Made by a program: the position numbers and the translations under genes
NCBI RefSeq assembly: GCF_004349065.1
Contig: NZ_SMKZ01000017.1
Coordinates: 1 to 64,000, forward strand
Source of the DNA: Jiangella asiatica
GTDB taxonomy: Bacteria; Actinomycetota; Actinomycetes; Jiangellales; Jiangellaceae
Length of the DNA stretch: 64,000 bases
Direction: 5' to 3'
The notes under the pieces: model-generated
Told to the model about the DNA's origin: nothing
The model's input: only the letters and a program-made list of their open reading frames with translations
Database searches by the model: none
In this document: positions 51,757-64,000 of the stretch, in pieces
Numbering within the stretch: position 1 is the first letter of the stretch
Layout: every line of letters begins with the position of its first letter

Positions 51757-51800
51757 CCCCCGCCGGATTCCCCCTCGCCGCCCTCTCCGGGGGCTCCCGA

Positions 51801-51879
51801 ATGATCACGTTCAGCACGAGATCCCGTGTCGCACCATGCTTGCAGTCCTCGTGATGCGCGAGAACACCTCGTGATGTGA
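51801..51879. repeat. Palindrome-family repeat after gltX, left copy
   Basis: Begins ATGATCACGTTCAGCACGAG and continues with a CACCATGCTTG core and CCTCGTGATG half-sites. It is arranged head-to-head with the copy at 52013-52092, so the pair forms a 292-base inverted structure. The left end lies 44 bases after the gltX stop. Confidence 0.8.
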
Positions 51880-52012
51880 CCGAGGTGGCGTGATGGAGTT
51901 GGCGGAGCGGCTGCGCTGACCGTGCCTCTACCGCGTGGTGCTCCCGCGGTGAGGGCTGCGTCGCTGCGGCTATGCGCGGGATGACTCCGGCCGGTCGCCG
52001 GGATCGGTCGCT
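51880..52012. other. Spacer between two inverted repeat copies
   Basis: No reading frame with codon bias, promoter or RNA motif is apparent on either strand. The stretch is enclosed by the inverted repeats at 51801 and 52013; no transposase is encoded, so if this was a mobile unit it is a non-autonomous one. Confidence 0.5.
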
Positions 52013-52092
52013 GGCCATCACCAGGGGATCTCGCGCGTCACCATGCTTGTGAGCCTGGTGTGACACGAGATCTCGTGCTGAACGTGATCATT
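52013..52092. repeat. Palindrome-family repeat, right copy
   Basis: Starts GGCCATCACCAGG, contains CACCATGCTTGTGAGCC and ends in the complement of ATGATCACGTTCAGCACGAG. It closely resembles 32123-32201 in the same orientation. It ends 28 bases before the promoter of the GH116-type gene. Confidence 0.82.
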
Positions 52093-52119
52093 CGGAGTCA
52101 CGGTGGGGAAACGGGCCAT

Positions 52120-52164
52120 TGACAGGTTCGTCACATTGCCCCTAGTCTCAGCAATCGATTTCTC
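52120..52164 (+). promoter_or_regulatory. Promoter and operator of the GH116-type gene
   Basis: TTGACA (52120-52125) and TAGTCT (52143-52148) are 17 bases apart, close to consensus. Just after the -10 lies GCAATCGATTTCTC (52151-52164) with the palindromic core AATCGATT, typical for LacI-family repressors; it covers the expected transcription start. The same 14 bases occur inverted at 57178-57191 before rbsA. ATG 52194 follows CGGAGGACGCG. Confidence 0.75.
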
Positions 52165-52193
52165 AGCCGTCCGAACACCCCGCGGAGGACGCG

Positions 52194-55100
52194 ATGGGCA
52201 TCGACCTGACCACCACCCCCGATTCCGCCGCGGAGTGTTGCGGCGGCGCGGCCTGTGATCCCGGCGAGATGAGCCGGCGCTCGTTCATCGCGCTCTCGGC
52301 GGTGGGCGCGGCCAGCACCGGCGCCGCCCTGGGACTCTGGCCGAACAGCGCCAACGCCACGATGAACACCCGCGCCGTCCCGGCCACCACCGCGCTCGAC
52401 CGGCGCTGGCTGGACAGCATCGCCGCCCGCGGCACGGCGACGGAGTACACCGGTCAGGCACTGAGTCGCATCGGGATGCCGGTGGGCGGTGCGTGCACGG
52501 GCCAGGTCTACCTCGCAGGTGACGGCCGGACGTGGTTGTGGGACGTCTTCAACGCCGACAGTTTCCGGTACGGCGGCGACGACTGGCAGGGCCTGCACTA
52601 CGCGGACCCGATCGAGCTCGACCCGTTCATCACCACCGGCTTCGCGCTGCGCTGGACCGCCGACGACGGCACCACGCGGACCCGGAGCATCGACAGCGAC
52701 GGCTTCGGCGACGTGCGGTTCCGTGGGCGTTACCCGATCGGCCACGTGGAGCTGCGCGACGACGACTGCCCGCTGGAGGTGGACCTCGACGCGTTCTCGC
52801 CGTTCGTGCCGACGAATGTCGCCGACTCCTCGCTGCCGGCCACGGTCTTCGAATACACGCTGCGCAACCGGTCGGACCGGACGGTGAGCGCGCAGCTCCT
52901 CGGCGTCGCGGAGAACCCGGTCTGTATCGACAGCCGGCGCACCCAGCCCATCCTGCTCGAGACCGGTCCGCTCACCTCCCATGCCGACGCCGCCGGCCTG
53001 CTCCACAGCGCCGCCACCTACGACGGCCCGCAGCCCGAGCGCCCGGACATCGTCTTCGAGGACTGGGAGCGCGACACCTACGCGCCGTGGACGGCCACCG
53101 GCACCGCGTTCGGCGCCGGGCCGGTCACCGTCGACGAGCTGCCCGGTTACATGCTGAACGGCGGGTCCCTCGGCGTCAGCGGGGACCGCTTCGTCACGTC
53201 GCACCACTTCCGCGACGGCGAGGACGTCTTCGAGGCCGACACCCACCAGGGCCGGCTGACCAGCGCGGAGTTCACCATCGAGCGGTCCAGCATCCTGGTA
53301 CGCGTGGGCGGGGGCAACCACGCCGGCGCCACCTGCCTGAACGTCGTCGTCGACGGCGCCGTGGTCGCCTCCGCGACCGGTGCGAACGAGGAGCGGCTGC
53401 GCACGTACTGGCTGGACCTCTCCGGGCATCAGGGCAGCACCGCCACGATCGAGATCGTCGACACCGTCACCGGCGGGTGGGGCCACGTCAACGTCGATCG
53501 CATCGTGTTCAGCGACCGGCCGGCGCCGCGCCCGGACGTCGTCATCGAGGACTGGGAGCGCACCACCTACGCGCCGTGGACGGCCACCGGCACCGCGTTC
53601 GGCTCCGGCCCGGTCACCGAAGCAGAGGCGCCGGCGTACTTCCGCCGCGAGGGCCCGCTGAACGTCAACGGCCAACGCTTCGTCACCTCGCACAACTGGC
53701 GCGACGGCGGTCCGCCCGCCGACGACCACGAGGGCACGCTGACCAGCGCGCCGTTCACCATCGAGCGCCGCTACCTGGCGGCGAACATCGCCGGCGGCAA
53801 TCGGGTGGACGCGGGCCTGAAGGTCGTCGTCGACGGCGAGGTGGTCGCCCGGCTGACCGGCCACAACTCCGAGGTGATGCGGGCGAAGGCCATCGACGTC
53901 AGCGCCTACCAGGGCCGCACCGCCGTCATCGAGCTGCACGACGAGGGCATCGGCGGCTGGGCGCACGTCAACTGCGACCGCATCTGGCTGTCCGACGTCC
54001 CGATCAACGAGCGGCCGCTGGAGGAGCTGCCCGACGGCGGCACGTTCGGCCTGGCGGTGTTCGGCCGCCCGGACGCGACGGTGCGGCCGTCGATCGCCGA
54101 CTGGTCCGGTCCCGAGGCGTGGTTCGACTCCGCCGACGGACCGCTGGAGGTCGATGGCGGCAGCGGCACGCTCGCCGGCACGGTCACCGTCCCGCTGGAG
54201 CTCGCGCCGGGGGCGAAACAGACCGTCAGGTATGCCCTGGCCTGGCACTTCACGAAGGTCGGTACGCGCTTCGGCTACATCGCCGGTGCCGCGGCGCTGC
54301 GCCGGCACTACGGCGAGGTCTACGCCGACGCGGGCGCCGTCGTCGCCGATCTGGCCGAGCGCGGCGACGAGCTGGCCGCGGCCACACACACGTTCGCGAG
54401 GACCTGGTACGACGACGCCACGCTGCCGGTGTGGTTCCTCGAGCGCACGCTGATCCCGGCGTCCACCGTCGCCACCGGCACCTGCCTGCGCTTCCACGAC
54501 GGGCGGTTCTACGCGTGGGAGGGCATCTACTGCTGCGACGGCACCTGCACACACGTGTGGAACTACGCCCAGTCGATCGGCCGGCTCTTCCCCGAGCTGG
54601 AACGCGACGCGCGCGAGCGGGTCGACTACGGCATCGCCTTCCACGAGGACACCGGCGCCATCGACTACCGCGGCGAGGCGCACCGCCGGGTCGCGCACGA
54701 CGGCCAGTGCGGCAACATCCTGCGCACCTACCGCGAACACCAGATGTCCGCCGACGGCGCCTTCCTCGGCCGCATCTGGCCGCGAGTGAAGGCGGCCACC
54801 GAGCACCTGATCAGGCACGACGGCGCGGGCGACGGCGGCAGCCCGGACGGCGTGATCGAGGACGAGCAGTACAACACGCTGGACGCCTCGTGGTACGGCG
54901 AGATCCCGTGGATCACCGGCCTCTACGTCGCGGCGCTTCGGGCCGCCGCGGAGATGGCCGACGACGTCGGCGACACCGCGTTCGCCGCCCGGTGCCGGGC
55001 ACTCGCCGACGCCGGCAGCGCCCACCTGGACGGCGCGCTCTGGAACGACACCTACGGCTACTACGAGCACGTCGTCGACCCGGAGCACACCGACGCCACC

Positions 55101-55946
55101 AACTCCAACCGCGGCTGCCACATCGACCAGATGTTCGGGCAGACCTATGCCCACCAGCTCGGACTGCCCCGCGTGTTCTCCGAACGGAACGCGCTGACAG
55201 CGTTACAAAGCCTGGTCCGCAACAACTACCTGCCCGACGCGCAGTCCTACCAGGACGAGTCCGGCATCGTCGGCGGGCGCACGTACAGCACCGAGGGCGA
55301 GGCCGGCACCGTCATGTGCACCTGGCCCTTCGGCGGCGCCGACACCGCGCCCGGCAACGGCGACCCCGGCCTCGTCGCCTACTTCAACGAGGTCTGGACC
55401 GGCCAGGAGTACCAGCTCGCCGCGCAACTGTTCGCCGAGGGCATGGTCGACGAGGCGCTGGCGGTCACCCGCGCGGTGCACGACCGCTACACCGCGGAGA
55501 AGCGCAACCCGTACAACGAGATCGAGTGCTCCGACCACTATGCGCGGGCCATGATGAGCCACGCGGTCTACCTGGCCGCCACCGGTTACGAGTACCACGG
55601 CCCGCGCGGGCACCTGGGCTTCGCGCCGCGGCTGGGCGACCTCGACGACGTCGCGGCCGCGTTCACCGTCGCCGAGGGCTGGGGTCTCTACCGCCAGCAG
55701 CGCACCGAGACGCGGCAGCGCAGCGAGGTCGACGTCCGCTACGGCCGGCTGCGGTTGCGGACGTTCGCGACGCAGGTCCCGGAGCGGCCCGGCAACCGGC
55801 AGGTGGTCGTCGAGGTGGTCACCGACCGGCGGCGCCGCCGGCTGGACGTCGCCGATGTCGCCGTCTCCAGGTCGCGGGTGCTGGTCACGCTGGCCGCCGA
55901 CGCCGAGCTGACCACGGCCGACACGCTGGTGGTGACGGTCGTATGA
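52194..55946 (+). CDS. Tat-exported GH116-type glycosidase with two inserted beta-domains
   Basis: 1250 residues. A Cys-rich start (ECCGGAACDPG) precedes a Tat signal, SRRSFIALSAVGAASTGAAL. Residues about 60-280 and 605-720 are the split N-terminal GH116 beta-domain (LSRIGMPVGGACTGQVYLAG, GLAVFGRPDATVRPSIADW). Between them sit two tandem copies (about 284-442 and 447-603) of a domain with DWERxTYAPWTATGTAFG, FTIER and GGWxHVNxDRI, as found near GH32 enzymes. From about 735 is the (alpha/alpha)6 catalytic domain (DUF608): GTCTHVWNYAQSIGRLFPEL, YNTLDASWYGEIPWITGLYV; Asp897 is a candidate acid/base by position. Likely substrate: a beta-linked glucoside, xyloside or arabinofuranoside. Confidence 0.85.
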   Translation: MGIDLTTTPDSAAECCGGAACDPGEMSRRSFIALSAVGAASTGAALGLWPNSANATMNTRAVPATTALDRRWLDSIAARGTATEYTGQALSRIGMPVGGACTGQVYLAGDGRTWLWDVFNADSFRYGGDDWQGLHYADPIELDPFITTGFALRWTADDGTTRTRSIDSDGFGDVRFRGRYPIGHVELRDDDCPLEVDLDAFSPFVPTNVADSSLPATVFEYTLRNRSDRTVSAQLLGVAENPVCIDSRRTQPILLETGPLTSHADAAGLLHSAATYDGPQPERPDIVFEDWERDTYAPWTATGTAFGAGPVTVDELPGYMLNGGSLGVSGDRFVTSHHFRDGEDVFEADTHQGRLTSAEFTIERSSILVRVGGGNHAGATCLNVVVDGAVVASATGANEERLRTYWLDLSGHQGSTATIEIVDTVTGGWGHVNVDRIVFSDRPAPRPDVVIEDWERTTYAPWTATGTAFGSGPVTEAEAPAYFRREGPLNVNGQRFVTSHNWRDGGPPADDHEGTLTSAPFTIERRYLAANIAGGNRVDAGLKVVVDGEVVARLTGHNSEVMRAKAIDVSAYQGRTAVIELHDEGIGGWAHVNCDRIWLSDVPINERPLEELPDGGTFGLAVFGRPDATVRPSIADWSGPEAWFDSADGPLEVDGGSGTLAGTVTVPLELAPGAKQTVRYALAWHFTKVGTRFGYIAGAAALRRHYGEVYADAGAVVADLAERGDELAAATHTFARTWYDDATLPVWFLERTLIPASTVATGTCLRFHDGRFYAWEGIYCCDGTCTHVWNYAQSIGRLFPELERDARERVDYGIAFHEDTGAIDYRGEAHRRVAHDGQCGNILRTYREHQMSADGAFLGRIWPRVKAATEHLIRHDGAGDGGSPDGVIEDEQYNTLDASWYGEIPWITGLYVAALRAAAEMADDVGDTAFAARCRALADAGSAHLDGALWNDTYGYYEHVVDPEHTDATNSNRGCHIDQMFGQTYAHQLGLPRVFSERNALTALQSLVRNNYLPDAQSYQDESGIVGGRTYSTEGEAGTVMCTWPFGGADTAPGNGDPGLVAYFNEVWTGQEYQLAAQLFAEGMVDEALAVTRAVHDRYTAEKRNPYNEIECSDHYARAMMSHAVYLAATGYEYHGPRGHLGFAPRLGDLDDVAAAFTVAEGWGLYRQQRTETRQRSEVDVRYGRLRLRTFATQVPERPGNRQVVVEVVTDRRRRRLDVADVAVSRSRVLVTLAADAELTTADTLVVTVV

Positions 55947-57133
55947 GCGGCGCTGTGCGTCGGGCCCGGTTCGTGGCGCTCAGCGGGTTCCTGGGCGCCG
56001 GCAAGACGACGACCCTCGGGGCGCTGGCCCGGCTGCTGGAGACCCGTGGCCGGCGCGTCGCGGTCATCACCAACGACCAGGGCGAGCAGCTGGTGGACAC
56101 CCGGGTCGCCGCGGTGAGCAGCGGCGACGTCGCGGAGGTGACGGGCGGCTGCTTCTGCTGCCGGTTCGAGGACCTCGAGACGGTGGTGACGGCGGCGATC
56201 GAGCACGGCGCCGACACGATCCTCGCCGAGGCGGTGGGCAGCTGCACCGACCTGCAGGCGACGGTGGTCCGGCCGCTGCGCCGGCGCTTCGGCGACGGGT
56301 TCGCGGTGGCGCCGCTGGTGGCCGTCGTCGACCCGCTGCGCCACGCCCAGCTGGGCCGGTCGCTGGCGCTGCGCGACGAGCGGTCGGACCTGGCCTATCT
56401 GTACGACCGCCAGCTGGCCGACGCGGACGTCGTCGCCGTGAACAAGATCGACGCAGCGCCCGGCGGCGAGGTCGACCGCACCCGCGACGACCTGCGGCGA
56501 CGGTATCCGTACGCGCGGGTCCTGGAGTACTCGGCGACGACGGGGGAGGGCCTGGCCGCGCTGGCGGACCTGCTGGCCGGCGACGGCGACGGTGATCGAG
56601 CGAGCGGAGACGCGGCCCCGGCAGCGCGGGACTTGGAGATCGACTACGACCGTTACGCCGCCGCCGAGGCCGAGCTGGCCTGGCTGAACCACACGGTGCG
56701 GCTGGAACCGGCCGGCACGGCGCCGGTCCCGCCGGCCCGGTGGGGCGAGGCGGCGCTGGCTCACCTCGGTGCGGCGGCGGCCCGGCGGGGCTGGACCGTC
56801 GGGCACGCGAAGGTGGCCATCGAGACGGCCGGGCGGATCACGAAGCTGAGCCTGGTCGACGCCGTCCGTCCGCCGATCGCCGACCTCGACGCCGGCACGC
56901 ACGCCGCCACGCACGCCGCCACGCACGCCGCCACTCATGGCGCGACGGCCGTGCTCAACGCCCGGATCGCGTGCGGTCCGCGGGAGCTGGACGCCGCCGT
57001 CGCAGCCGCGGTCGCCGCCGCGGACGGCGCCACCGGCACGGTCTCCACCTCGGACGCCGGGCCGCCGGCGTCGTTCGCACCGTCGTTCCCGACCCCGACC
57101 CACCGCCTTCCATCGGCGATCGACAAGGCCTAG
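55943..57133 (+). CDS. CobW/COG0523 family GTPase with His-rich tract
   Basis: 396 residues of the G3E family of metal-centre chaperones. P-loop SGFLGAGKTTTL at about 14-25, the metal-binding GGCFCCRFEDL (CxCC) near 66-76, Asp-containing Walker B (LVAVVDP) and NKID guanine specificity. Unusual is residues 318-332, THAATHAATHAATHG, encoded by three copies of a 12-base repeat, a likely metal-binding tract. The ATGA overlap with the GH116-type gene makes one operon, so the metal may be required by that locus, or the link may be only positional. C-terminal 60 residues are low-complexity Ala. Confidence 0.85.
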   Translation: MSGAVRRARFVALSGFLGAGKTTTLGALARLLETRGRRVAVITNDQGEQLVDTRVAAVSSGDVAEVTGGCFCCRFEDLETVVTAAIEHGADTILAEAVGSCTDLQATVVRPLRRRFGDGFAVAPLVAVVDPLRHAQLGRSLALRDERSDLAYLYDRQLADADVVAVNKIDAAPGGEVDRTRDDLRRRYPYARVLEYSATTGEGLAALADLLAGDGDGDRASGDAAPAARDLEIDYDRYAAAEAELAWLNHTVRLEPAGTAPVPPARWGEAALAHLGAAAARRGWTVGHAKVAIETAGRITKLSLVDAVRPPIADLDAGTHAATHAATHAATHGATAVLNARIACGPRELDAAVAAAVAAADGATGTVSTSDAGPPASFAPSFPTPTHRLPSAIDKA

Positions 57134-57177
57134 CCGCCCACTCCAGGGGCAGCAGGTCCCTGGTGATCACCGGAGAG

Positions 57178-57208
57178 GAGAAATCGATTGCTCTTCGTGG
57201 CGTACTCT
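57178..57208 (+). promoter_or_regulatory. Operator and possible -10 of the rbsA-rbsC-rbsB-GH172 operon
   Basis: GAGAAATCGATTGC (57178-57191) is the exact reverse complement of the site before the GH116-type gene. TACTCT (57203-57208) could be the -10 box, placing the operator over the -35. CCGGAGG before ATG 57223 is the ribosome-binding site. Confidence 0.7.
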
Positions 57209-57222
57209 CTCCGGAGGTCACC

Positions 57223-58773
57223 ATGACGGCCCCGCCGCTGCTCGCGATGCGCGGCATCGTCAAGCACTTCGGCGGCGTGCACGCGCTGCGTGGCGTCGAC
57301 CTCACCGTCGGCGCCGGTGAGGTGCACGCCCTGCTCGGCGAGAACGGCGCCGGCAAGTCGACGCTCATGAACATCCTGTCCGGGGTGGTCCGGCCCGACG
57401 GCGGCGGCATCGAGCTCGCCGGCGAACCGGTCGCGCTCGGCTCGCCCGCCGAGGCCCAGGCCGCCGGCGTCGCGATGATCCACCAGGAGCTCGACCTGGT
57501 GCCGCAGGCGACCGTCACCGAGAACCTGTTCCTCGGCCGTGAGCCGCGCACCCGCCTGCGGACCCTGGACCGGGCCGCGATGCGACGGCACGCGCGGGAG
57601 CTCCTCGACGACATCGGCGTCGAGCTGGCACCGTCGCGGCGGCTCAGCTCGCTGCGGGTCGGCGAGCAGCAGATGGTCGCGATCGCGAAGGCGCTGAGCC
57701 TGGACGCGCGCATCCTCGTCATGGACGAGCCGACGTCGGCGCTGTCGGACTCCGAGGTGGAGCGGCTGTTCGCGATCATCCCGGGGCTGCGCCGCCGCGG
57801 CGTCGGGGTCGTCTTCATCTCGCACCGGATGGACGAGATCGCCGTCGTCGCCGACCGCGGCACCGTGCTGCGCGACGGGCGCAACGCCGGGTCGTTCGTC
57901 GTCGCCGAGACCCCGCCGGCCGAGATCATCCGCATGATGGTCGGCCAGCCGATCGAGCAGCTGTTCCCCGACCGGGAGCCGCCGGCCGAGCGCGTCCGGC
58001 TGCGCGTGCGCGACCTCACCGTCGCCGACGGGTCGGACCTCGGCGGGCGCAGCGAGCCGCGCGGCGTCGACCTCGACGTGCGCGAGGGCGAGGTGCTGGG
58101 CCTGGCCGGACTGCTCGGCGCCGGCCGTACCGAGCTGCTCGACGCCCTGTTCGGGCTGGCCGGGCACCGGCTGTCCGGCACCGTCGAGCTCGACGGCGAA
58201 CCCGTCCGGTTGAGCGACCCGCGCGACGCCATCGCCGCCGGAATCGGCTACGTGCCGGAGGACCGGCGCGCCAGCGGGCTGGTGATGATGGAGTCGGTCG
58301 CCGCGAACATCGTGCTGGCCGCGCTGCCGGCGCTGGCCCGAGCCGGCTGGCGGCGGGCGGCCCGCGAGCGCGAGGCCGTCGCGTCGTCGATCCGCGACCT
58401 GCACATCAAGACCGCCAGCGCCGAGTCCGCCGTCGGGACGCTGTCCGGCGGCAATCAGCAGAAGGTGGTGTTCGCCCGGCATCTGCTGCGCCAGCCGCGG
58501 CTGCTGCTCCTGGACGACCCCACCCGCGGCGTCGACATCGGCGCCAAGTCCGAGATCTACCGGCTGCTCGCGGGCCTTGCCACCAGCGGACTGGCCGTCG
58601 TCGTCGCGTCGTCGGAGCTGCCGGAACTGCTCGGCATCTGCGACCGCATCGCGGTGCTGCGCGGCGGCCGCATCGTCACCGTGCTCGACGGCCGCGACGC
58701 CACGCAGGAGGCGATCCTCGCCGCCGCGAGCATCGAGCAGAACAGCAACCCCAGCCGCATGGAGGCCGGATGA
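57223..58773 (+). CDS. Sugar ABC transporter ATPase with two nucleotide-binding domains (RbsA/MglA type)
   Basis: 516 residues. First domain: FGGVHALRGVDL, Walker A GENGAGKS, signature-like SSLRVGEQQMVAIAKAL and Walker B ILVMDEPTSALSDSEV. Second domain: LGAGRTELLDALFG in place of a standard Walker A, VGTLSGGNQQKVVFARHLL and LLLDDPTRGVDIGAKSEIY, as usual for this class where one site is degenerate. It energises the permease encoded next (4-base overlap). Class members import pentoses, hexoses or autoinducer-2. Confidence 0.94.
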   Translation: MTAPPLLAMRGIVKHFGGVHALRGVDLTVGAGEVHALLGENGAGKSTLMNILSGVVRPDGGGIELAGEPVALGSPAEAQAAGVAMIHQELDLVPQATVTENLFLGREPRTRLRTLDRAAMRRHARELLDDIGVELAPSRRLSSLRVGEQQMVAIAKALSLDARILVMDEPTSALSDSEVERLFAIIPGLRRRGVGVVFISHRMDEIAVVADRGTVLRDGRNAGSFVVAETPPAEIIRMMVGQPIEQLFPDREPPAERVRLRVRDLTVADGSDLGGRSEPRGVDLDVREGEVLGLAGLLGAGRTELLDALFGLAGHRLSGTVELDGEPVRLSDPRDAIAAGIGYVPEDRRASGLVMMESVAANIVLAALPALARAGWRRAAREREAVASSIRDLHIKTASAESAVGTLSGGNQQKVVFARHLLRQPRLLLLDDPTRGVDIGAKSEIYRLLAGLATSGLAVVVASSELPELLGICDRIAVLRGGRIVTVLDGRDATQEAILAAASIEQNSNPSRMEAG

Positions 58774-59810
58774 CCGTCGACACCACCGACCCCGTCGAGA
58801 AGCCAGTCGAGCAGTCCAGGAGACGGCGGTTCGTCATCCCGGAGCGGTTCTTCACGTTCCAGAGCTACGTCGCGCTGATCCTGGTCTTCCTTGCCGCCAT
58901 CATTTTCTCGCCGCGACGCAACGGGGAGATCGTCTTCCTGAACTCGGAGAACCTGCTCAACATCGTCCGCGCGGTCTCCGAGATCGGCATCCTGGCGATC
59001 GGGATGACGTTCGTGATCCTCATCGCCGGCATCGACCTGTCGGTGGGCGCCATCCTCGGGCTCGCCGCCACCGGGACCGCCAGCCTGCTCATGGTGAACG
59101 ACTTCGGCGTGGCCATGACCGTGCTGATCATCCTCGCGATCGGGATGGCCTTCGGCGCCACCCAGGGCTACCTGTCCGCGCGGCTGGGCATCCAGGCGTT
59201 CATCGTGACGCTGGCCGGACTGCAGGTGGCCCGCGGCCTGGCCCGGATCTGGTCCGGCGGGCAGGGCATCGCGCTGGCCTACGGCGACGGCCCCGACGTC
59301 GCGCCGCAGGCGTTCTCGCTGCTCAACTCCCGGACGTTCAACGGAACGGTGCCCATCCCGGCGCTCATCTTCGCCGGCGTCGGCGTCATCGCACTGATCG
59401 TCGTCCGTAAGACGGTGTTCGCCCGGCACGTCTACGCCATCGGCGGCAACGAGCGGGCGGCGCGCCTGTCCGGCATACCGGTCACCAGGATCAAGGTGAC
59501 CGTGTTCGCGATCTCCGGCCTGCTCGCGGCCCTGGCCGGCATCATCCACGCCGGCCAGCTCAACCAGGGCAGCCCGAACGACGGCATGGGCTACGAGCTG
59601 GACGCCATCGCCGCCGTCGTCATCGGCGGCACCAGCCTCATGGGCGGCGTCGGGACGGTGTCGGGCACGCTCGCCGGCGCCCTGCTGCTCGGCATCCTCA
59701 ACAACATCCTCGCCCTCAACAACATCGACTCCAACGTCCAGCTGCTGATCAAGGGCGTGATCATCGTCGCCGCGGCCGGCATCCAGGCCTTCAGGTCTCA
59801 GCAGAAATGA
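58770..59810 (+). CDS. Sugar ABC transporter permease (RbsC type)
   Basis: 346 residues with about ten membrane helices: YVALILVFLAAIIFSPR, ISEIGILAIGMTFVILIAGI-like SEIGILAIGMTFVILIAGID, LSVGAILGLAATGTASLL, and the family segments FIVTLAGLQVARGLARIW, HVYAIGGNERAARLSGIPV and VVIGGTSLMGGVGTVSGTL. The GxGGxERAARLSGI-like loop contacts the ATPase. ATG 58770 overlaps the preceding stop. Confidence 0.94.
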   Translation: MTVDTTDPVEKPVEQSRRRRFVIPERFFTFQSYVALILVFLAAIIFSPRRNGEIVFLNSENLLNIVRAVSEIGILAIGMTFVILIAGIDLSVGAILGLAATGTASLLMVNDFGVAMTVLIILAIGMAFGATQGYLSARLGIQAFIVTLAGLQVARGLARIWSGGQGIALAYGDGPDVAPQAFSLLNSRTFNGTVPIPALIFAGVGVIALIVVRKTVFARHVYAIGGNERAARLSGIPVTRIKVTVFAISGLLAALAGIIHAGQLNQGSPNDGMGYELDAIAAVVIGGTSLMGGVGTVSGTLAGALLLGILNNILALNNIDSNVQLLIKGVIIVAAAGIQAFRSQQK

Positions 59811-59830
59811 CTCCCACGAGAGGAACCGTC

Positions 59831-60850
59831 ATGTCCAGAACCATCCGCGCACTGACCGCGCTGTGCGGCACCGCCGCCCTGTTCGCCGTCGCTGCCTGCG
59901 GCACCGAGTCCGACGTCCCCGAGTCCGCCGGCGGCTCCGCCCAACCCGACGAGGGCACCGAGTGCGCCGGCGCCGACGGCGAATACCTCATCGGGATGAG
60001 CCAGGCCAACGTCGCCGAGCCGTACCGCCAGCAGATGGACGACGACATCGAGGCGGCGGCCGCCGAGGTCGACCAGTTCGAGGTCGTGTTCGCCGACGCC
60101 GCCCAGGACAACGCCAAGCAGGTCGCCGACGTCGAGAACTTCCTCACCCAGGGCATCGACCTGCTCATCATCAGCCCCAACGAGGCCGCGCCCCTGACCG
60201 CCGTCGTCGAGCGCGCCTACAACGAGGGCATCCCGGTCATCGTCCTGGACCGCAAGATCGAGGGCGACTCGTACACGCAGTTCATCGGCGCGGACAACAC
60301 CGAGATCGGCCGTGCCGCCGGCGAGTACGTCGCCACCGAGCTGCTGCCCGACGGCGGCTCCGTCGTCGAGCTGAAGGGCCTGCCCGGCTCCACGCCCGCG
60401 CAGGAGCGGGCCGACGGGTTCCGTGCAGGCATCGCGGCCAACCCGAACATCGAGATCATCGCCGAGGGTGTCGGCGACTGGCTGCGCGAGAAGGGGCAGA
60501 GCCAGTTCGAGGCGATCCTGCAGGCGCAGCAGGCCATCGACGTCGTCTACGCGCACAACGACCCGATGGCCGAGGGCGCGTACCTCGCCGCCCAGGCCGC
60601 CAGCCGGCAGTCCGAGATGAGCTTCATCGGCATCGACGCCCTGCCCATCCCGTCCGGCGGCATCAAGGCGGTCGAGGAGGGCCGGCTCTCGGCGACGTTC
60701 GTCTACCCGACGGGCGGCAAGGAGGCCATCGCCACCGCCGAGGAGATCCTCGTCCAGTGTGCCGAGGTGGACAAGGAGCAGATCCTCGAGACGGAGCTGA
60801 TCACCGTCGAGAACGCCGCCGAGATCTACGCCCGCAACGCGACCCAGTAG
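59831..60850 (+). CDS. Sugar-binding lipoprotein (RbsB type)
   Basis: 339 residues. Lipoprotein signal with lipobox AVAAC (Cys about 24), then a Ser/Gly/Asp linker. The periplasmic-binding-protein type I fold: [80 protein letters not shown] and [18 protein letters not shown]. Close in pattern to ribose/galactofuranose-type binders (YtfQ-like), which suits a furanose sugar. ATG 59831. The GH172 gene begins seven bases after its stop. Confidence 0.93.
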
Positions 60851-60857
60851 GAGTGTC

Positions 60858-63800
60858 ATGAAGCTGGCACGACTGACCCTGATCGCCGCACTACTCGCCA
60901 CCCCCGCCGCGACCGCGAACGCCACGACCACCGCGGACGCCGCGCCCGACCCCGTCGTCGGAGTGTCGCAGGCGAGCCCCAACGGACCCGTCGGCTGGGA
61001 CGTCTACCGGCAGCTGGACCGGCTGCCGGAGCTGGCCGCCGGGGTCGGCACCGAGCAGTTCTCCAGCTACGACCGGGCCGGCGGCAACGACGACGGCTTC
61101 GTCGGCACCTACTCCTGCCTGAGCCAGGGCGAGCACGGCTGCGTCATCGCCGAGCACACCGGCGCCGGCGAGATCGGCTCCATTTGGTTCACCCGCGACG
61201 GTGGCAACGTCTCGGCCACCGGCAACATCGTGATCGAGCTGGACGGGTCGGTCGTGCTCGATGCGCCGATCCAGGACGTCGTCGACGGCGAGCTGGGCGC
61301 GCCGTTCGTGTTCCCGCTGGTCGCCAACGCCGACCAGAGCTCCGGCGGCGTCACGATCAAGGTGCCGATGACATACCGGGAGTCGATGCGGGTCTCCACC
61401 ACGAACAACCCGCTGTTCCACCACGTCAGCTACCGCACGTTCCCGACCGCCGAGGGCGTCGCGACGTTCGACCCGGACGAAGTGCCGACGGATGTCCTGG
61501 AGATGCTGGCCGCCTACGGGACGCAGGATCCGAAGCCGGCGCGTTCCAACGCCCAGACGAGTGAGCGCGACGTCGAGCTGGCGGCGGGGGAGAGCGTCCG
61601 GCTGGGCCGGTTCAGCGGCAGCGGCCTGCTGACCGAGCTGGCGTTGCGGCTGCCGCAGGTGGTGGGCCCGCAGGAGGGCCCGAGCGTCACCGACGACGGC
61701 CGCGCCCACGTCGGGACCAGCACGTTCACCGTCGCCGTCGACCCTGCGAACCAGGGCGTCCTGCTGACCCGCCGGCTGGACACGTTCTCCGCCGACCAGG
61801 TCGCCACCGTCTCCGTCGACGGCGTCGAGGTTGCGCAGTGGCAGCCGCTGCCCGGCACCGGCGGCGAGTGGGCCGACCAGACGGTGGAGCTGCCGGCGTC
61901 GGTCACGGCGGGCAAGTCGGAGATCACGATCACGAACGCCTTCGTCTCCGCCGGCATCGACTACAACGAGTTCCGCTACTGGGTCGACTCGGTGGTGGAC
62001 GGTCAGGCGGTGCGGACGGACGAGGTGGACGTCGGCACGTCGGCGGCGGCGCTGCAGAGCGAGGCCGCGCACGACTATGTCATCGTCGAGCCGCGCTGGG
62101 ACGGCGAGCGGACCTACCGGTACCCGCCGGCGCCGGGCCAGGAGGACGAGGTCGCGGTGTCCGACGCGCTCCTGCGCGACCTGCGGCTGCGCATCTCCTT
62201 CGACGGCCAGCAGACGGTCGACGCTCCGGTGGGCGAGTTCTTCGGCTCCGGGCTCGGGGAGACGTCGGTCCGGTCGCTCATGTACGCGATGGAGGACGGT
62301 GACGGCGGCTGGTACCGGTCGTGGTGGCCGATGCCGTACGCGCGGTCGGCCGAGGTGTGGCTGGTGAACGAGTCGGAGGTGCCTGTGACCGCGGGTTCGT
62401 CGTCGATCACCTGGGCCCGGGACACGTCGGTCGCGCGGTCACTGCGCGGCGAAGAGCCGGCGATCGGGTACTTCCAGGCGACGAGCCGGCGCGGTGACAC
62501 CGAGTTCGGCCGCGACTGGGTCTTCCTCGACGTCGACGGTCACGGCAAGTTCGTCGGCGTCAACCACACCATGGAGGGCCGCATCACCGGAGGCAACATC
62601 CGCAACTACCTGGAAGGCGACGAGCGCGTCTACGTCGACGGCATGCGCACGCCGCAGCTCAACGGCACCGGCTCGGAGGACTTCTACGAGGGCGGGTGGT
62701 ACTTCAACCGCAACGAGTTCTCCAACCCGATGAACGGCGCGCCGGAGATGGAGACCCGCAGCTTCGGCTGCGAGCACCAGTGTGACGCGGCGTACCGCCT
62801 GATGATCGCCGACGCGGTCGGCTTCCGGACGGGGCTGCGCTTCGGCATCGAGCACGGCCCGACCGCCAACGAGCCGGCGGTCTACGGGTCGACGGCGTTC
62901 TGGTACGGCCACGCCGGGGCTGTGGGGCTGCGGACGACGGACACCGTGCCGGCGGGCTCGGGGGGCCGGGAGCTGACCTCGACCTTCGAGGGCGACGACG
63001 ACACCGTCGCGGTGACGGGGACCGTGGCCGACTCCACGGAGCCGGTGACGTTCACCGTCGACATCGACCAGAAGAACGACGGGGTCCGCTTGCGGCGGCT
63101 GTCGGACCAGGCTTCGCCCGGGCAGGCAGCGGCGGTGTCCGTGGACGGCGTGGACGTCGGGGTATGGCGGCAGCCGCTCGGCAACACGTCGTCGCGGTGG
63201 CTCGAGGACGAGTTCGAGCTGCCGGCGCCGGTGACCGCGGGGAAGTCGTCGGTGACGGTGACGCTGTCCCCGGTTCCCGGGGCGCCGGCGTGGACCGCGG
63301 CGACGTACCAGGTGCTGTCGCACGTGCGGCCGTTCGCCGACCGGACGCCGCCCGGCGCGGTGTCGTCGCTGGTGGCGACGGGATCGTCGGTGAACGCGGT
63401 GTCGCTGTCCTGGGCGGCTGCCTCGGACGACGTCGCCGTCGCGTCGTACGAGGTGCACGCGTCGCGGACCGCCGACTTCACGCCGTCGTCGTCGACCCTG
63501 GTGGGCACCGTGTCGGCGCCCGGTTTCCAGCACGGCGGACTCGGGCTGGCCGAGACGTGGCACTACCGGGTCCGGGCGGTCGACGCCGCCGGGAACGCCG
63601 GCCCGTGGTCGGAGGTGGCGTCGGCGACCACCGGACGGACCCTGAACGTCGAAGGCGAGTCCCTGCTGCCGGCCGTTTCCGCGACCGCGCCGATCGAGGC
63701 GCAGGGCAACTGCTGCGGTGTCTCGTGGTCCGGGGGAGCGCAGCTGTGGTTCCGGGCTGACTCGGCGGACGATGCCGCTGTGCTGTCGTTCGACGTTCCC

Positions 63801-64000
63801 ACGGCGGGCACCTACGACGCGTCGGCCGTACTGACCCAGGCGGCCGACTACGGCGTGGTGCGGTTGTCCGTCGACGGCGGCTTGGTCGGAGCGGCGTTCG
63901 ACGGGTACAACGACGGCGTCCGCGTGGCCGACCCCGTGTCGCTGGGCTCGCTGACACTGTCGGCCGGGCAGCACGAGCTGGCACTGACGCTCACCGGGCG
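60858..64000 (+). CDS. Secreted multi-domain GH172 (DUF2961) glycosidase, 3' end beyond window
   Basis: At least 1047 residues, no stop before the window edge. A Sec signal ([21 protein letters not shown]) is followed by a DUF2961 domain: [40 protein letters not shown], then an insertion, [25 protein letters not shown] and the hallmark [16 protein letters not shown] with Glu607 as candidate catalytic residue. A small beta-domain occurs twice (about 290-355 and 735-800: [15 protein letters not shown] and [17 protein letters not shown]). A fibronectin type III domain (about 830-925) and a carbohydrate-binding-like domain follow. GH172 contains exo-D-arabinofuranosidases and difructose-dianhydride enzymes. 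Last gene of the rbs-type operon. Confidence 0.85.

Follow-up and report, generated by a model that had tools for sequence, protein, structure and literature searches.

Two short palindromic sites in the 64,000-nucleotide stretch of DNA analyzed here (the window), O1 before a GH116 gene and O2 before an rbsA-like gene, are very probably operators of one LacI-family repressor that is encoded on another contig (C87) and would control a dispersed D-arabinan regulon. This assignment was made from sequence comparison, and the lack of linkage between the repressor gene and the window in this genome counts against it. D-arabinan is a defining polymer of mycobacterial cell walls, and the enzymes that degrade it were reportedly identified only in 2023. 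A predicted repressor with a strict operator offers a handle on when bacteria make these enzymes, and the shared operator ties unlinked loci into one pathway. The coordinates of the features are collected in Table 1.

Table 1. Positions of predicted control elements and genes in the window and of the repressor gene on contig C87
Feature	Position	Strand	Remarks
GH116 promoter	52119..52148	+	TTGACA 52119-52124, 18-nt spacer, TAGTCT 52143-52148; read directly
Operator O1, AGCAATCGATTTCT	52150..52163	.	One base after the -10 box, over the expected start site of GH116
GH116 gene	52194..55946	+	Pfam GH116; Tat signal over cut-off; best solved relative ExoMA2 (8ic6)
CobW-family GTPase gene	55943..57133	+	Pfam cobW; overlaps GH116 end
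Operator O2, AGAAATCGATTGCT	57179..57192	.	Between cobW and rbsA
rbsA-like ATPase gene of CUT2 monosaccharide ABC transporter	57223..58773	+	
rbsC-like permease gene	58770..59810	+	
rbsB-like sugar-binding protein gene	59807..60850	+	
Large secreted DUF2961 (GH172-type) protein gene	60858..64000, on to contig position 64064	+	Pfam DUF2961; 1068 aa
LacI-family repressor gene	C87 19152-20165		Within the C87 D-arabinan cluster

The first-pass annotation had reported an identical 14-mer in the two control regions, and this was confirmed: GCAATCGATTTCTC is present at 52151-52164 on the forward strand and at 57178-57191 on the reverse strand, with no further exact copy within the window. When up to three mismatches were allowed, it had 7 matches in the window versus 1.96 ± 1.23 in shuffles. 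The identity between the two copies reaches 15 bases (AGCAATCGATTTCTC), and both are occurrences of the 14-bp palindrome AGNAATCGATTNCT, which is the meaningful unit. Six exact copies of AGNAATCGATTNCT were found in the 7.03-Mb genome versus 0.026 expected under a first-order Markov model, and the reversed control pattern had none. All six are located in control regions of sugar-use genes. The annotation had proposed an operator of LacI type that unites GH116 and rbsA in one regulon, and had named a motif scattered in coding regions as the contrary outcome; the placement of the six copies agrees with the proposal. As in the LacI-family regulons surveyed by Ravcheev et al. (2014, PMC4052901), for example those of RbsR and CcpA, the site is an even palindrome with a central CG pair, and autoregulation and control of sugar genes are predicted here as well. 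The text of that survey mentions neither arabinose nor AATCGATT, the bare core of the palindrome. This core alone occurred 19 times in the genome versus 13 expected, indicating that the AG and CT arms carry the specificity; the arms were dominant over 75 sites, in which the central TCGA was fixed by the search. The bare core was rejected as a marker on the same count, with several of its 19 sites beside other LacI genes.

The TTGACA and TAGTCT boxes described earlier before O1 are present, but the spacer between them is 18 nt rather than 17. The likely start of the GH116 transcript falls within O1, as had been predicted. A generic sigma-70 scan reported no promoter in the region, and the GH116 -10 box matches at only 3 of 6 positions; the promoter was judged by conservation instead, and both boxes are kept in five relatives. 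O1 is kept before all seven GH116 orthologues of at least 72% identity in the family (five exact, and two, in G002 and G006, with one mismatch), where the conserved copies stand behind TTGAC and TA boxes. In G004 and G009, whose GH116 relatives are 48% identical, the site was looked for before these genes and was absent, indicating that some GH116 relatives are outside the regulon. Over 75 nonredundant sites, 41 start 0 to 5 bases after TTGAC-N16..19-TAnnnT, compared to 124 of 224,323 control positions. Since a protein bound right after the -10 box would sit on the start of transcription, the sites are most naturally read as serving repression.

The layout around O2 is different from what had been described. 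O2 is kept before rbsA in G002, G003, G006, G008 (with one mismatch in G008), and G018, as well as in G048 from another family, and the gene order GH116-cobW-rbsA is kept in G003, G006, G008, and G018. The possible -10 box reported beside the second copy did not hold up, as the stretch around it is absent from four close relatives. In these four Jiangella sequences (L186, L204, L208, and L216), the operator overlaps the Shine-Dalgarno sequence GAGAGGAG and an in-frame TTG start codon of rbsA, and one short stretch would there serve both repressor binding and translation start. The rbsA gene of the window begins 30 bases further on, its start having moved, unlike in the four relatives, to a later ATG with its own GGAGG. 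The annotation had counted two separate transcription units with rbsACB transcribed on its own, whereas GH116-cobW-rbsACB-GH172 may form a single operon with an internal operator. The chances are about even that O2 is an auxiliary or internal site of such an operon (a roadblock or a loop) and not the operator of a separate rbs promoter. All of the genes are on one strand, GH116 and cobW overlap, a terminator was looked for in between and none was found, none of the five Jiangella sequences compared shows a promoter before rbsA, and in four of these five O2 overlaps the rbsA ribosome-binding site. However, the rbsA operator in G018 and G048 (another family) is directly behind a clear promoter, indicating that the ancestral form was a separate unit. 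This question concerns the layout alone, and a single operon is compatible with control by the C87 repressor.

Of the six exact genome sites, two are in the window, three are on C87, and one is on C32. On C87, one site precedes a DUF4185 (GH183) gene, and two occupy the interval that separates a transporter-GH172 operon from the divergently oriented isomerase and kinase genes; C87 also has a one-mismatch site, its fourth, 55 bp before the start of the LacI-family gene in the same cluster. The DUF4185 protein, beside which this genome has no other strong member of the family, has the endo-D-arabinanase EndoMA1 as its best solved match (E 9e-104). The best solved match of the C87 GH172 is the exo-alpha-D-arabinofuranosidase ExoMA1 (E 1e-143), and it carries the asparagine that excludes fructose; a sugar ABC transporter of the CUT1 type is encoded in the same cluster. 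The isomerase, apparently of the L-fucose/D-arabinose type, and the kinase have L-fucose-isomerase and FGGY domains and are conserved in the loci, with scores below every NCBIfam equivalog cut-off. The regulon suggested by the first-pass annotation is well supported; it is wider than could be seen from the window and points to D-arabinan rather than ribose. Two further one-mismatch sites were judged to be due to chance: C36:51057 falls within a coding frame, and C51:73439, whose core is altered, within a gene, each close to the start.

The GH116 gene product is a probable Tat-exported exo-beta-D-arabinofuranosidase. Among solved structures, it is closest to the exo-beta-D-arabinofuranosidase ExoMA2 (8ic6; E 1.2e-67), with beta-glucosidases far behind. 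In the alignment to 8ic6, whose chain numbering is 4 ahead of the residue numbers in the paper, E431 (nucleophile), D557 (acid/base), and H446 and R483 (recognition of D-arabinose) of ExoMA2 are all conserved, as in ExoMA2-like exo-beta-D-arabinofuranosidases (GH116 subfamily 4). The large DUF2961 protein has several GH172 members as its best solved relatives. The genome holds all three enzyme families, GH183, GH172, and GH116, with EndoMA1, ExoMA1, and ExoMA2 as the best solved matches. Together, the window and C87 genes are predicted to be the D-arabinan pathway of Shimokawa et al. (2023, PMC10509167), split over unlinked loci.

The locus of Microbacterium arabinogalactanolyticum in that study likewise holds GH183, GH172, GH116, an ABC transporter, an isomerase, and a kinase, and its D-arabinan genes are induced by D-arabinose and by mycobacterial wall extract (PMC10509167). 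In contrast to the one linked cluster of M. arabinogalactanolyticum, at least two unlinked loci are involved here. ExoMA2 has no signal sequence, whereas the GH116 of the window carries a Tat signal as well as two additional repeats in its interior. In Dysgonomonas gadei, a member of the Bacteroidota, the D-arabinan locus PUL42 (Al-Jourani et al. 2023, PMC10115798) also encodes GH183, GH172, and a fucose-isomerase-like protein. The M. arabinogalactanolyticum paper names no regulator or operator, and the words "regulator" and "LacI" are absent from the text of PMC10115798.

The C87 LacI protein and the motif were each used to search 60 relatives. An orthologue is present in 18 genomes; these include all 16 that carry the exact motif, where its identity is 53% or higher. 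Over 395 genomes of the class, the motif was present in 18 of 20 genomes with the orthologue compared to 17 of 375 without it (Fisher p about 1e-19, with no correction for relatedness); the two exceptions, G011 and G020, have one-mismatch sites beside the repressor gene. Where the orthologue is absent, several exact sites, for example in G257, G296, G336, and G344, have no D-arabinan neighbors and are due to chance or belong to other regulators. By our reading, 42 of 43 exact sites in the 16 genomes have D-arabinan genes, a sugar transporter, or the LacI gene nearby; one in G001 (L212) has no clear D-arabinan neighbor. The orthologues are flanked by sites, placing the presumed cognate LacI gene and a putative autoregulation site together, and those of the Jiangellaceae share the recognition helix VSAATVSRVLNG. 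Outside the family, both orthologue and motif are present in G048, G053, G133, and G144. In G048, the repressor gene lies between rbsACB-GH172-kinase and isomerase-GH116 with one site on each side, and in G144 (another family) it is part of one cluster that joins C87-type genes to window-type genes. More distant Streptomyces D-arabinan loci have a related LacI protein (about 50%), with AGAAATCGATTTCA near GH172 in seven. The best solved relatives of the C87 LacI protein are CcpA and RbsR. However, it differs from both, scoring far under the NCBIfam equivalog cut-offs (RbsR, 249 bits versus 531; CcpA, 238 versus 442).

The first-pass annotation had looked to a LacI-family gene just past position 64000. 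Two such genes, C34:64857 and C34:69352, do exist and are the nearest regulators, but it is very unlikely that the sites belong to either of them and that only a local ribose-like sugar locus is ruled. No operator copy is near these genes, their recognition helices (SVITVSRVIND and SPQTVSRVVND) differ from that of the C87 protein (SAATVSRVLNG), and the distribution of the motif tracks the C87 orthologue. This genome encodes about 60 LacI paralogues, and a paralogous protein could share some sites. That the C87 repressor shares the sites with another paralogue, or with several of like specificity, in a jointly controlled regulon is improbable, although less so than local control. G004, G005, and G017 have a 42 to 43% identical LacI gene beside the same motif and GH183/GH172 genes, and a 46% identical LacI gene is present on C72 of this genome. 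However, the site near the C72 paralogue has different arms (TGTAATCGATTACA), and no exact motif is found there. We give next to no weight to a chance match or to membership in a dispersed repeat. An 80-bp dispersed repeat is present upstream of GH116, but O1 and O2 are outside the repeat region (51797-52095), the excess of genome copies over expectation stands against chance, and sites with promoter geometry are conserved over genera and families; their placement across genomes already refutes this explanation.

Control by the C87 repressor can be drawn out into a mechanism. From the computed placement, conservation, geometry, and co-occurrence of the sites and from the enzyme families, we infer binding, repression, the inducer, and the transporter substrates as follows. 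Without inducer, the repressor would bind AGNAATCGATTNCT, in most cases immediately past the -10 box, and block transcription. Repression would extend to the GH116 gene and, through GH116 or through O2, to cobW-rbsACB-GH172; on C87 to the transporter-GH172 operon, the isomerase-kinase genes, the secreted GH183 endo-D-arabinanase, and the repressor's own gene; and on C32 to a sugar transporter-GH42 operon. The inducer that frees the repressor would be derived from D-arabinan, most likely D-arabinose itself or one of its products. A monosaccharide or its product is suggested because the matching Microbacterium genes are induced by D-arabinose and because the orthologue in G053 and G133 is beside a monosaccharide-type transporter (in G053 also an FGGY kinase), without glycoside hydrolases in the stretch seen. 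Secreted GH183 and GH116 would cut the D-arabinan of arabinogalactan and lipoarabinomannan. The oligosaccharides would enter via the C87 (CUT1) transporter, with cytoplasmic GH172 finishing the cleavage, and free D-arabinose would enter via the RbsACB-like (CUT2) transporter; the isomerase and kinase would yield D-ribulose 5-phosphate. As GH116 has a Tat signal and adjoins the CUT2 transporter, a division of labor is proposed, with GH116 cleavage outside the cell coupled to RbsACB uptake and with C87 oligosaccharide uptake coupled to GH172 cleavage inside.

No regulator of D-arabinan use was found in the open-access literature searched. The predicted regulator-operator pair is new for a recently recognized pathway, and LacI control of a sugar regulon is of a well-known kind (PMC4052901). 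It is about as likely as not that a single dedicated LacI-family repressor, conserved across four or more families of actinobacteria, acts as the master switch when mycobacterial-type cell walls (their arabinogalactan and lipoarabinomannan) serve as food, with its operator as a genome-wide marker for further enzymes. If so, the operator would flag additional enzymes, such as the large secreted GH172 and those encoded by the GH42 operon on C32; among relatives, it also points to extra copies of GH183 and GH116 as candidates. The exact operator on C32 (C32:47105; L041 9606) precedes the sugar transporter-GH42 operon, upstream of which lie a GH59 gene and a gene for a GntR-type regulator. This suggests that use of the galactan part of arabinogalactan may fall under the same repressor; as a predicted regulon member, the GH42 operon was seen in this genome only.

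The source organism groups with Jiangella, with its nearest GH172 relatives in named Jiangella species. In several Jiangellaceae, a conserved gene for a CobW-family GTPase stands between GH116 and rbsA. Between its N-terminal and catalytic parts, GH116 carries two inserted tandem copies of a domain (residues about 277-592; about 53020-53970), 58% identical over 156 aa, for which no Pfam family was reported. Palindromes of AATCGATT with other arms (such as TGGAATCGATTCCA, GGCAATCGATTGCC, and TGTAATCGATTACA) are present on C33, C37, C51, and C72 and at C36:81357, several of them near other LacI genes, and look like operators of other LacI paralogues. The 80-bp repeat just upstream of GH116 is present in two inverted copies (51797-51876 and 52016-52095), with 93 matches listed in the genome; as the repeat is itself nearly palindromic, many places were matched on both strands. 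It resembles an element of the REP or MITE type.
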